Positions 42,901-50,830 of a DNA stretch of 64,000 nucleotides are shown here, in pieces. The stretch comes from Piscicola geometra (lineage: Eukaryota > Annelida > Clitellata > Hirudinida > Piscicolidae). Position 1 is the stretch's first letter; every line of letters begins with the position of its first letter. The stretch spans positions 1,510,493-1,574,492 of the forward strand of contig OX030958.1 of assembly GCA_943735955.1 (NCBI GenBank), read 5' to 3'. A program made the position numbers and the translations under genes. The notes under the pieces were generated by a model. It worked only from the letters and a program-made list of their open reading frames with translations, searched no databases and was not told the DNA's origin.

Positions 42901-45900
42901 GCTTGTTTGAAATTGTAAGAATCACATTTTTCTTTTGGACAAAAATAATCTAAACTTTTGACATCTTATTCAGATCTCGGTCTTTTGATGGATTTTTTTC
43001 AAAAGCAGAATCCAACGGGAAGTAAGAAACTATGACCAAATCAATGGAATAAAATGGAATTTATTAAAGGAATGACTAATATGCAGTTCAACATTTTACA
43101 ACTTAAGTTTCGTAAGTTTGAAAAAATTGTGTTTCAGGTCCTGAGCAGGTCAAAAATTCCAGTGTAGCTGTTTTGAACTTACTGAGTTAGTCTTCAAACA
43201 ACATTAAAACAACAAGATGTAACAATTTTTTGATCTGTTAAACCTGATTCAAGTTGTTTCAAGCTCCCTAAGAACAAAAATCAATAGCATTAAAATCCTT
43301 CTTGATGGCTGACGTCATACTTTGCAGAAGAAAACCCGAAATGCGTTGGCTTCGAGAACAAACTGACGAGCAGCCGTAAGTTTTCATTCATGATAATAAA
43401 AAACTTTGCTTGTTTAAACCTAAATAACTAACATAAACAAACGTTTAATTAGAATTGACTTGATAAAAGTAATAACTGAGGATATCTCATTGGCAACAAT
43501 GTATCTCACATCTTACATCAATAACTCGCATGTTTCTTCTGCAGCCCCCACGCCTATTCCTTCCTTGGGTGAGAGTCCACTAAAAAAAATCTGCATTTTT
43601 CTTAAAAACCAATTTAAAAATGAATTTTGGTAAAACAATTTTTACAAGTTTCGTATAAAAGTTTATAAGAAATCATGCGATTTTAAATTCAAATGCAATA
43701 ACTATTTCAACCCTTCTCTTCATCAGATCTCAAGCAGAACCTCAAAGCACTCGCTCTTCTATACTGTAAACCGCCATCCTAAGAACATTACATTATTTTG
43801 CTTAAATCATTTGAAAAATAAAATTTATAAAGCTATAGAGTTTGAAAAGAAGTACTTTTTGTTGTGTTGACAGTGATGAGCGCTTTTGTTCACTTCGAAA
43901 GGGCGCTTTACAAATAATTAGTGATTGATTGATTGATTGACAGTGATGAAATTGATGGTCAAATTGATGAATTGAAAAAGTTATTCGTCTAAGGTGATGA
44001 TGATGATAGTGATAATTGACACACAGGTGACGGCTTCAAGGCAGACCCAGCGGCTGAAGGCTTAGACAACTTGCAAGACAGTCTGGCCCTGGTGGTAGCC
44101 CCCGCCTGTGAGTCATTAACTATTATAAGAGCATTTTAAGGCTTTATGAGACGCTAGGACTAAAAAACTACATTAATACAGTCAAAAAACATTAAATTGA
44201 TTAAAAATGTTTGCATATGCATGTTGATGAAAACATGATGATATCTAAATGATTTGAAGTTGTGGCAGCAACTCTGACTACATCCATGACGACCATGACT
44301 CCTGCCCGGCGTGAGTGTAAATGAGAAATGACTTGTAGTAGTAGTAGTAGTAGTAGTAGTAGTAGTAGTAGTAGTAGTAGTAGTAGTAGTAGTAGTAGTA
44401 GTAGTAGTAGTAGTAGTAGTAGTAGTAGTAGTAGTAGTAGTAGTAGTAGTAGTAGTAGTAGTAGTAGTAGTAGTAGTAGTAGTAGTAGTAGTAGTAGTAG
44501 TAGTAGTAGTAGTAGTAGTAGTAGTAGTAGTAGTAGTAGTAGTAGTAGTAGTAGTAGTAGTAGTAGTAGTAGTAGTAGTAGTAGTAGTAGTAGTAGTAGT
44601 AGTAGTAGTAGTAGTAGTAGTAGTAGTAGTAGTAGTAGTAGTAGTAGTAGTAGTAGTAGTAGTAGTAGTAGTAGTAGTAGTAGTAGTAGTAGTAGTAGTA
44701 GTAGTAGTAGTAGTAGTAGTAGTAGTAGTAGTAGTAGTAGTAGTAGTAGTAGTAGTAGTAGTAGTAGTAGTAGTAGTAGTAGTAGTAGTAGTAGTAGTAG
44801 TAGTAGTAGTAGTAGTAGTAGTAGTAGTAGTAGTAGTAGTAGTAGTAGTAGTAGTAGTAGTAGTAGTAGTAGTAGTAGTAGTAGTAGTAGTAGTAGTAGT
44901 AGTAGTAGTAGTAGTAGTAGTAGTAGTAGTAGTAGTAGTAGTAGTAGTAGTAGTAGTAGTAGTAGTAGTAGTAGTAGTAGTAGTAGTAGTAGTAGTAGTA
45001 GTAGTAGTAGTAGTAGTAGTAGTAGTAGTAGTAGTAGTAGTAGTAGTAGTAGTAGTAGTAGTAGTAGTAGTAGTAGTAGTAGTAGTAGTAGTAGTAGTAG
45101 TAGTAGTAGTAGTAGTAGTAGTAGTAGTAGTAGTAGTAGTAGTAGTAGTAGTAGTAGTAGTAGTAGTAGTAGTAGTTGGTGTTAATGAAGTATTTACTTT
45201 ATTTTTTTTATGTGTCATAATCCAGTATAATATACTCGTAATCACAAAATAATAGTAGAAAGTCAAAGTTAAATTCAATTTGATGGCGATTAATTTCGTT
45301 TAATAACTGCACCAACACTGACAGCCCTTCTGCGAGGCGACCTGGTGGAGTGGCTGAAAGGATCAGGTGCAAATCTTTTCTGTTTCATTTTAATGATATG
45401 TTTCTTAGAAAAGCTTCCACGTCATTCATCGCTTTCACCACAGGCACGACACTGTCTCCAGACGCCATCGTCGACCTCATGAGTGCGTGCATGAGCCTTC
45501 ATCAAACACATTTTCTATAATTATATAATCTATAAGATTATAATCTTTGATGTCGCTTCTAGGACTGTGCATTTTATTTCTCTTCAATTCAATTTTCTAA
45601 ATATTAAAATTGACTTCACAAAAATATTTCTACAAATTTACTGGTCATTTTTTACAAATTATCATTCTAATATTACAGATAGAAATCCTGACTGCGCCAG
45701 TGCTGAAGTCTTGGCTAGCTTTTCGAACCGTAAGTTGGCCAATGACTAAGATTTAATATTTAAAAAAACTCATTTTTAGAGATTATTTGATTTTAATTTC
45801 TAAAAAAATAAAAATACCTAAAAACAATTTCAGCTCCCCCCTATGACAAGTCTCTTAGTGAGTTTTCCTATATTTACATTAATTTTTTTAATGTATATAT

Positions 45901-48900: not shown

Positions 48901-50830
48901 TAACATATGTTTCAAGTATTGAAGTAAATTATTTTTTTTAAATCAACGTTATATTAATTTGGTGAAACTCACAGCTCCTGTCTACAACAAGTCTCTTAGT
49001 GAGTTCTTTTACGAATTAATTTCCAACATAACTTTCAAATGACAAGATACTCTCTTTCCTCCATGAATGTTTCAGCAATCACCCTCATCCACTCACCACC
49101 ATCCTTCACTCACTACCAGTGTTATTTTCGTAACGAAAACGAAAATTCTGAATAATCGTTCCACAAAAACGAAAATAAAAACTATAATTATTTCCAAAAC
49201 GAAACTGAAATAAAAACTATAATTATTTTCAAGACGAAAATTAAATAAATTTCAAAGTATGCCATAATATGTAAATGTATAATTTATATAAAAAAATATA
49301 TGTCTGTGTTATATGCATTATCTTTGGGCTTTATGAAAGTAGCGCCATTTATAAAACATTATTTTATTACCGCGTCGCTTTGTCAATTAAATTATCACTT
49401 ATTTTAATCGTAAATTTGTTATTATATTTCAAATTTGTTATTACTCAATAATTTACGTAATGATTTCTTATAATATTTCAATTGATTGTTAATTTTTAAA
49501 ACTCATTCGTTGTTAATATACAGTTCTATTTTACTGTTTCATTTTATGATCAATTAATTTTTTTATAATAAAAAATAGTGTTCAAAGTTGTAAATTAATA
49601 TATTGTCAAAACTAAAAGGAAAATAATAACTTTAAATATTTTCAAAACTGAAACGAAAATAAAAACTTTAATTATTTTTAAAACGAAAACGAAAATAAAA
49701 ACTTTAATTATTTTCAAAACGAAAACGAAAATAAAAACTTTAATTATTTTCAAAACGAAAACGAAAATAAAAACTTTAATTATTTTCAAAACGAAAATAA
49801 AAACTATAATTATTTCCAAAACGAAACTGAAATAAAAACTATAATTATTTTATAAAACGAAAATAACACTGCTCACTACCACTCCTCACCGTCATCCACT
49901 CATTACCCTCAAACACTCACCACCCTCATCCAAACGCTCACGACCACTTTCCGAACAGCTGTGCAGCAGAACGCCAACTCGATAGCTGCCTTGTACTGTA
50001 GGAGCAACAGTCCCTTTGCCACCTCCCTCGCCTCACTACTCGGTCAGTTTAACATTCGAGACACTGCTTTATAATTTAAATTATCCCAGTAAAAAAGGTC
50101 CTATTGATGCGAACCTGAAGGTTTTTTAGCATATATATTTTAAGTTTTTCTCGTTTTTCTGGAAGTTTCATAAAGAATGAAAAGTTTTTTTTATAAATTA
50201 ATAATTTTTAAGAAATCTTTTTTTAATTTTCTATAGTTTTCACCTAAAAAGTTTTTTCATTGATGTTTAAATAGGTATAAAATAGCAAAAGCTTTTTTAA
50301 AAATATACTTTAAAGATATATTTTGCAGGTTCCTCAGCCTCATCGGCACCAGCATTGGGTAGGTCTTCAAATTACTTGCGTGGCATTGAACTGTATTGAT
50401 AAATTCAAAGCATAATTTTCAATTTCCACCCTTAATAACGCACTTCCTTTTCCTCTCAGTGGTGATTCTGTTGTCGGTAATGGGAGGTCTGACGGGCTTG
50501 GCACTGCTGACCTTATTTTGTTGTATTTATGGACCTGCTCTCTGCAACGCCTGCTGTGGCTTCCTCTTGCCTGCTTGTCCAGCCAAGGTCTGCGCACCAC
50601 AATGCGTCGTTTCTGCACGAGCTCCTTGTGTTCCTGTGTGCGACCCAGTCCCAGTGCACCAGCCTGGCCACTGCACCACCAACGTCACCACCATCATCAC
50701 TGCCGACAACCTCAAGCCATTCTCCTCTCAGGACAACTGCCTCGCTTCCAGTGGAGCCTTTGGAGGGGTCACTCGCTACAAAAACAACTACTTGCGTCCC
50801 AACTATGGTTGCAAACCTTATGGCTGCTGA
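36915..50830 (+). CDS. VWDE-like multidomain membrane glycoprotein (44 exons, apparent 1-nt frameshift)
   Basis: Hand-spliced exons give about 1,499 residues if one extra base is discounted. First 17 exons: 36915-36981, 37110-37342, 37558-37650, 37739-38240, 38352-38492, 38663-38863, 38992-39162, 39261-39713, 39780-39978, 40112-40282, 40344-40590, 40687-40765, 40950-41064, 41284-41313, 42258-42290, 42431-42544, 42738-42782. Then two 13-exon blocks (42974-46634, 46844-50358) and 50460-50830. Domains in order: signal peptide (MKICWLALVVAFCYLV); a Cys-containing N-terminal region; a von Willebrand D domain (CTVSGYSSVKTFDDYFYKM, CVCGVAVQESG, GLCGLYDGDPNDANT) followed by GKSIFDG, as in VWDE; an EGF-like segment (CTYNGVCSNGNCNCTGG); a Thr-rich stalk; four related Cys modules; a membrane segment (VVILLSVMGGLTGLALLTLF); and a Cys-rich tail. 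It is probably a cell-surface or extracellular-matrix protein. A T4 run at 38095-38098 shifts the frame, and TAA follows unless one T is extra. Confidence 0.88.
41605..41850 (+). repeat. tRNA-derived SINE (best copy in the window)
   Basis: Head GGGAGCGGGAATGGCTTAGA, where TGGCTTAGATGG is A-box-like and GCTTGTTCGAATCC B-box-like, then a body with ATACCTAGTGTATATGATG. The tail ATGGCCTGCGTCTGTCAGGC precedes GTGAATAATAAAAACC. It lies in an intron of the VWDE-like gene in sense orientation. Tail fragments occur at 61-125 and 57783-57830, and a further head at 22735-22925. Confidence 0.85.
43858..43945 (+). mobile_element. LINE 3' end fragment with (GATT)n tail
   Basis: GATGAGCGCTTTTGTTCACT and GGGCGCTTTACAAATAATTA followed by GTGATTGATTGATTGATTGA match the 3' end of the LINE at 59.25-59.31 kb. 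It sits in an intron of block A and is absent from the matching intron of block B, so it inserted after the duplication or was lost from B. Confidence 0.75.
44335..45176 (+). repeat. (TAG)n trinucleotide array, about 280 copies
   Basis: 842 bp of apparently pure GTA/TAG/AGT repeat inside an intron of block A. The homologous intron in block B (48258-48393) has none. Open frames of poly-Ser and poly-Thr across it are artefacts of the third frame. Confidence 0.98.
46844..50358 (+). repeat. Tandem duplication, 13-exon block B of the VWDE-like gene
   Basis: Exons 46844-46891, 47022-47069, 47256-47303, 47503-47526, 47744-47782, 47930-48010, 48207-48257, 48394-48435, 48559-48597, 48811-48861, 48975-48998, 49959-50042 and 50329-50358, all with phase-1 ends. 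Intron 48999-49958 has grown through a hAT MITE insertion. CACTCACCACCATCC-type repeats flank the MITE and match 46070-46200 of block A. Confidence 0.9.
49117..49871. mobile_element. hAT MITE, CAGTGTTATTTTCG family, intronic copy
   Basis: CAGTGTTATTTTCGTAACG to CGAAAATAACACTG, with CTCACTAC duplicated on both sides (49109-49116, 49872-49879). Closely related to 13437-14160, including the AAAACGAAAACGAAAATAAA subterminal arrays and a GAAAGTAGCGCCATTTATAA core. Inserted in a block B intron. Confidence 0.92.

Follow-up and report, generated by a model that had tools for sequence, protein, structure and literature searches.

Which protein is encoded by the long run of short, symmetric exons in a 64,000-nucleotide stretch of the Piscicola geometra genome (Annelida, Hirudinida; GenBank assembly GCA_943735955.1, contig OX030958.1, positions 1,510,493 to 1,574,492 of the forward strand), and how did the repeats in that protein arise? 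We analysed this whole stretch, referred to below as the window (C4:1510493-1574492), and searched 171 Mb of the genome in 66 contigs. The run belongs to a 45-exon gene in which a VWD domain and a Thr-rich stalk are followed by four related two-cysteine modules and a hydrophobic C-terminal end, and a near-identical copy of the front of this gene, on contig C2, ends in a chitin-binding CBM_14 domain instead. At a rough probability of 0.5, the gene would encode a membrane-tethered, mucin-like protein of an apical matrix with a secreted, chitin-anchored sister, the modules having arisen by two duplications and the sister by a segmental copy to C2.

Structure of the gene and its predicted protein

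The gene lies on the plus strand at 36915-50830. Its predicted exons were spliced by hand from the genomic letters; once spliced, they form one open frame of 1429 amino acids that opens at the ATG at 36915 and closes at the TGA at 50828-50830. With the acceptor of exon 38 placed before 48237, the splice sites are GT-AG except in the intron after exon 8, which is GC-AG. The protein consists, in this order, of a predicted signal peptide, a VWD domain, an EGF-like Cys region, the Thr-rich stalk, two units that each hold a module A and a module B (AB units U1 and U2), a predicted transmembrane segment and a Cys-rich tail (Table 1).

The VWD domain matched PF00094 well above the curated cut-off (E 2.9e-13, 50.9 bits against 22.9), and the EGF-like stretch matched EGF_Teneurin below its cut-off (E 0.11, 13.1 bits against 24.3). 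The transmembrane segment (19-residue hydropathy of 2.45 from residue 1305) is the sole peak above 1.6 beyond the signal peptide, as judged by hydropathy. For the tail encoded by exon 45, a search of the genome at a limit of E 1 gave a single match. A first-pass annotation of this DNA had placed the modules between a vWD/EGF region and a membrane anchor, at the position of the EGF repeats in vertebrate VWDE. The position stands, with the VWD domain, the EGF-like region and the transmembrane segment all in place; the parallel with VWDE is weak, because there is only one, sub-threshold EGF-like stretch. In place of GDPH and CGLCG, the motifs for self-cleavage and multimerisation of VWD proteins, the window protein has GYSS and SGLCG.

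Introns 1-13 are of mixed phases and all 31 introns from 14 to 44 are of phase 1, and each of the 30 consecutive exons 15-44 is of phase 1-1. Unit U1 comprises exons 19-31 (42974-46634, 618 nt) and unit U2 exons 32-44 (46844-50358, 579 nt). The open spliced frame and the exon phases bear out the two blocks of 13 phase 1-1 exons that had been proposed, with the correction that the units are of 206 and 193 codons and not of about 209 residues each. Since the unit exons are all short (21-84 nt) and 1-1, modules or single exons could presumably be added or skipped in frame.

Four modules from two duplications

In both units module A resembles module B. The four A-B pairs gave local alignment scores of 84, 86, 88 and 71, where shuffled sequences averaged 25-27 (z 9.8-12.4), and with softer gap costs the scores were 82-102 (z 7.4-9.9); for none of the four pairs, at either gap setting, did any of 2000 shuffles reach the score. 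The exon boundaries follow the same pattern: junctions 20/21, 21/22 and 22/23 share alignment columns (35, 52 and 60) with junctions 27/28, 28/29 and 29/30, and the first A-B junction, where the alignment has gaps, is displaced by 4 columns, so that three of the four comparable positions coincide exactly. The exon pairing within units that had been read by eye is therefore upheld by the A-B alignments, except that exon 44 (GSSASSAPALV), rich in Ser and Ala, cannot be recognised as a copy of exon 31, which is rich in Thr. An intron within the second Cys codon (junction 23/24) was found in A only, and the ancestral module may have had six exons or five.

Each module contains two cysteines, as had been claimed, and both belong to the 9 columns that are invariant over seven aligned modules (an alignment without the A module of the C2 copy, which differs from A1 by one residue). 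A and B have diverged much further (28-36% identity to A1) than the two units have from each other, with 81 of 96 residues identical between the A modules and 65 of 80 between the B modules. Between U1 and U2, dS is 0.946 and dN 0.162 (dN/dS of about 0.17) when the linkers and two exon pairs, 24/37 and 30/43, are excluded, and dS is 0.529 and dN 0.108 when these two pairs are included. The 30 intron bases flanking U1 and U2 exons match at 6-22 of 30 ungapped positions, with the exception of those upstream of exons 30 and 43, which match at 29 of 30. Judged from the sequence, A and B are homologous modules and U1 and U2 coding duplicates. Chance as an explanation of these exons was rejected on the basis of the U1/U2 dN/dS and of the relative described below.

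The two excluded exon pairs are near-identical while most of their neighbours have diverged: exons 24 and 37 (44027-44107 and 47930-48010) match at 79 of 81 positions and exons 30 and 43 (46223-46306 and 49959-50042) at 84 of 84. The end of intron 42 matches intron 29 of the C2 copy over a longer stretch (72 of 74 positions) than it does intron 29 of the window (41 of 42). The pattern in both pairs looks like gene conversion.

A relative with a single unit

When the front half of the gene was searched against proteins, it gave one match, P0002, a protein of 1275 amino acids from another organism on a contig of 4124 nt. As this contig is too small for introns such as those of the window gene, we took P0002 to be transcript-derived. 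Its front is 61% identical in the search alignment (511 of 831 aligned residues in a separate alignment), its VWD domain matches PF00094 above the cut-off (43.5 bits), and its residues 928-1124 form one AB unit, after which come a similar transmembrane segment and Cys-rich tail, with 70 of 133 aligned residues identical from exon 44 on. In the transcript-like P0002 the sequence continues across the exon junctions of its unit, and this single unit with the same tail backs both the splicing that had been proposed and the order of the duplications. The divergence of A from B, which far exceeds that of U1 from U2, together with the single unit in P0002, supports the earlier proposal that the module was duplicated first and the pair later. 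U1 and U2 differ at 30 sites to which P0002 can be aligned; it agrees with U2 at 12 of them, with U1 at 6 and with neither at 12, so the unit nearer the membrane may be the more ancestral in state.

A second copy of the gene that ends in a CBM_14 domain

A near-identical segmental copy was found at C2:2133648-2143132 (loci L031 and L029), with exons 1-30 in like order and one unit. Exons 1-29 of the two genes differ by 45 changes (dS 0.034, dN 0.0085) and exons 19-23 are identical; over 28 of the 29 introns, the repeat-bearing intron 25 being omitted, 4659 of 4933 aligned bases (94.4%) are the same. When the genome was searched with the front half, 18 matches had an E of 0.01 or better, and all fell at the window gene or at this copy. 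The homology breaks at 46619 in exon 31, from where C2 reads on in frame to a CBM_14 domain (E 5.9e-6, 26.8 bits against a cut-off of 22.1) and then a stop. Neither U2 nor the membrane tail is present in the 10.9 kb downstream of the C2 copy, and Pfam scans found no CBM_14 in the window gene. In the C2 copy the GT donor of exon 16 has been lost, and its module B reads NRYPDC instead of NRNPDC and is three residues shorter behind the second Cys.

Intron 25 of the window gene, within the module region, contains a perfect (GTA)n array (44335-45176, about 281 copies); the C2 array is shorter and imperfect. The genome is rich in CBM_14 sequences, with 39 matches at an E of 0.1 or lower, that of C2 counted. 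Five of them, on different contigs, are 60-64% identical to the C2 tail (C8:196878, C4:4724391, C14:4542365, C6:9254926 and C12:4104491), and a cluster of CBM_14 sequences lies on C2 at 2.71-2.91 Mb.

Identity and fold of the module

The module, which the first-pass annotation did not recognise as a known family, gave no match above a cut-off in Pfam profile scans. Pfam returned no family for U1, U2 or B1 at E 1 and none for A1 or B1 at E 10, and for the P0002 unit only chance-level matches below their cut-offs (EspA at 0.028 and TPR_IPO5 at 0.037); NCBIfam gave one chance-level match for P0002. The best matches in two PDB sequence searches were at chance level (E 0.87 and 0.66), and a third gave none at 0.1. 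AlphaFold2, run without an alignment, placed five helices at matching places in each module (pLDDT 47.2 for the P0002 unit and 52.0 for its module B), and the best Foldseek match to this low-confidence model of module B had an E of 5.7. Our best guess, from the helix pattern, the even number of cysteines and the fact that both are conserved, is a small helical domain closed by a disulphide.

None of the module searches drew on more than 7 sequences. Protein searches with modules gave no useful match; one of them missed the true relative P0002, whose length lay within the limits set, another excluded it by a length limit, and an own-genome search with the P0002 unit missed the window's own units. 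Because the module searches failed these positive controls and the folds are of low confidence, a new fold is unproven. A tblastn search of the protein against 14 ten-kb stretches around other VWD matches gave one VWD-level match (E 0.006) and no module at E 0.01 or better, a negative that is weak for the module given its short exons. Literature searches, which go by words and not by sequence, led to no paper that we recognised as dealing with this module, and Rfam and tRNA scans gave no matches. Two genome matches, L025 (28% identity, E 1.5) and L027 (29% identity, E 3.19), were set aside as chance, as was the match that module B gave in tblastn (E 3.5-4.9) to a VWA-like sequence close to CBM_14. 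A tunicate origin of the genome was also rejected: the COX1 match on contig C66 contains 12 in-frame TGA codons and, when translated with table 5, has 6 AGA codons at positions of conserved Ser. This agrees with the invertebrate (protostome) mitochondrial code and goes against that of tunicates, in which AGA stands for Gly; the NMRWEG stretch has a spiralian look.

Only tentatively, at distinctly less than even odds, would we describe the two-Cys five-helix module as an undescribed extracellular family made of symmetric micro-exons, in which recombination between linker exons can alter the copy number. In the same reading this animal has two matched genes that display one VWD head and its modules either on the membrane or on chitin, the pair having come from a segmental duplication in which a terminal chitin-binding sequence was captured. 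If the module is a new fold, a domain would be added to the catalogue; if it is not, the gene pair would still be a clean natural experiment on anchor swapping.

A model for the gene pair and its alternatives

The window gene would, in our model, encode a single-pass membrane glycoprotein that has its VWD head spaced from the cell by a presumably glycosylated Thr-rich stalk and by four modules, each of them probably a five-helix bundle with one disulphide joining the NP-C and LYC cysteines. The A/B duplication would have come first, and the AB unit would then have been duplicated by recombination in linker exons. Later, a segment of about 9.5 kb, from the signal peptide to the U1 linker, would have been copied to another chromosome-scale contig, probably in the direction of C2, where it came to end in CBM_14. 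The end of the protein would set its location, at the membrane for the window gene and at chitin for the C2 sister, with head, stalk and modules extracellular by architecture. As the heads are near-identical, both products would show the same head on two sides of one coat, such as the cuticle, the gut lining or similar. The gene structure, the duplications, the conserved cysteines and the two different ends, hydrophobic or CBM_14, can be read from the sequence; fold, disulphides, glycosylation, direction of the copy, tissue and role are inferred. One genome shows, in orderable steps, the gain of modules by an extracellular protein and the swap of its anchor (membrane versus chitin) via symmetric phase-1 micro-exons.

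Several points weigh against this model. The topology is based on hydropathy only, and in the stalk of P0002 another run of residues, at about 860-900, is hydrophobic as well. With pLDDT values of 47.2 and 52.0, the helix bundle and the disulphide are guesses, and the placement in cuticle or gut is likewise a suggestion from the architecture. As GDPH and CGLCG are not kept, VWD-driven cleavage or polymerisation is not assumed and classical polymer assembly is unsupported. The unit exons of C4 and C2 differ by just 7 changes (2 synonymous and 5 not), so that constraint is not shown by this pair. The one unit of P0002 could stem from similar repeats that the assembly had collapsed; its A and B modules align poorly on their own (global score 17.5, 25 of 77 identical, and a pairwise MAFFT alignment without the first Cys aligned), and they are in register only when aligned together with the window modules.

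There is an appreciable chance, somewhat below evens, that the module is a diverged member of a named helical domain, beyond the reach of few-sequence profiles, in an otherwise ordinary surface glycoprotein. The missed P0002 and window units, in searches backed by 7 sequences or fewer, make the negatives weak; against this reading stand the merely chance-level Pfam matches and the empty or chance-level PDB sequence searches, while the Foldseek result, from a low-confidence model, is no real evidence. The history may also have been different: with a probability that we would place distinctly under evens, the four-module gene could be a recent chimera, in which unequal crossing-over in linker exons fused a C2-type front and U1 to an older, U2-bearing gene with a transmembrane end, instead of C2 descending from an old gene with two units. 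U1 is nearly identical in C4 and C2, down to the unchanged exons 19-23, and U2 is much older (dS 0.95); P0002 agrees more often with U2 than with U1 (12 sites against 6, with 12 matching neither), and exon 31 looks like a Thr linker fused to a DEE end resembling that of exon 18. Genome searches, however, were without a second tail of the transmembrane type or a further front half, and although the near-identity in pairs 24/37 and 30/43 points to an exchange of U1-type with U2 sequence, it does not date that exchange.

We regard it as improbable that the symmetric micro-exons serve mainly to produce many splice variants, with variation as the function, like schistosome micro-exon genes. The 30 consecutive 1-1 exons and the small size of the unit exons would suit such a role, and the lost exon 16 donor of C2 would be tolerable by in-frame skipping, but both cysteines and the module length are kept from U1 to U2 with a dN/dS of about 0.17.

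Comparison with known systems

VWDE has a VWD domain and EGF repeats and no TSP1 (PMC9117669). The window protein likewise appears to be extracellular and combines a VWD domain with EGF-like Cys sequence; in contrast, it has one sub-threshold EGF-like stretch in place of repeats (Pfam gave no EGF family above the cut-off), and in addition a Thr-rich stalk, four modules and a membrane anchor. MUC4 is described in PMC5354666 as having NIDO, AMOP and vWD. A Thr-rich stretch, a VWD domain and a single C-terminal transmembrane segment (by hydropathy) are shared with membrane mucins of this type, and by analogy the window protein may work like one. NIDO and AMOP were absent from the Pfam scans, in which VWD alone was found in the first 843 residues of the window protein at E 1 and only VWD and a chance-level TM_ErbB1 in P0002. 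A further difference from MUC4 is that the window VWD lacks the GDPH motif.

The molluscan Pif/BMSP proteins combine VWA with chitin binding (PMC11291548). The likeness to CBM_14 (peritrophin-A) proteins is confined to the end of the C2 sister, and the window gene differs from Pif/BMSP in having VWD, not VWA. Elsewhere in the genome, sequence beside CBM_14 matches looks VWA-like by eye. Schistosome micro-exon genes encode secreted proteins (PMC10526429). Many short exons are common to both; those in the window build conserved repeats in a membrane-anchored protein of 1429 amino acids.

Features of the window

Table 1. Features of the 45-exon gene and other features of the window, in window positions.
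Feature	Position	Strand	Basis and remarks
Start codon and signal peptide (MKICWLALVVAFCYLVTKNSAQ), exon 1	36915..36981	+	Hydropathy only; similar N-terminus in P0002 and C2 copy
VWD domain, residues 274-423, exons 6-8	38382..39129	+	Pfam PF00094
Cys-rich region with one EGF-like stretch, exons 10-14	39780..41064	+	Exon map
Thr-rich stalk, exons 15-18	41284..42782	+	Exon map
Module A1, first in unit U1, exons 19-24	42974..44107	+	Exon map and alignments
Thr-rich linker A1-B1, exon 25	44269..44310	+	Exon map
Module B1, exons 26-30	45325..46306	+	Exon map and alignments
U1-U2 linker, exon 31	46587..46634	+	C2 homology ends inside, at 46619
Module A2, first in unit U2, exons 32-37	46844..48010	+	Exon map and alignments
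Short Thr linker, 21 nt, exon 38	48237..48257	+	
Module B2, exons 39-43	48394..50042	+	Exon 43 identical to exon 30 at 84/84
Ser/Ala juxtamembrane linker, exon 44	50329..50358	+	P0002 linker aligns
Predicted transmembrane segment and Cys-rich C-terminal tail, exon 45	50460..50830	+	Stop TGA 50828-50830
Putative small secreted, N-glycosylation-rich protein gene, upstream of the 45-exon gene	23714-24889		By eye
Two open frames with Cpn60_TCP1 matches (CCT chaperonin subunit gene)	60059-61302	-	Cpn60_TCP1 matches
Open frame with PHD finger match	673-1569	-	25.2 bits, cut-off 24
DUF4371 match	10889-11425	-	Similar open frame at 8104-8574
Retrotransposon-like sequence	16963-19982, 25579-27228, 57818-58913		By eye except reverse transcriptase matches
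Repeated blocks of TATATGGGTCCTATATGGGCT-like and CCCATATAGGGCCCATATGGGC-like sequence	20260-20800, 21420-21710		By eye

Outside the 45-exon gene, the open frame at 24326-24889, within the putative small secreted protein gene, had no Pfam match. The frame with the PHD finger possibly belongs to a TAF3-like gene, and DUF4371 is a transposase-related family. The reverse transcriptase matches in the retrotransposon-like sequence lie at 25579-27228 and 57818-58459.

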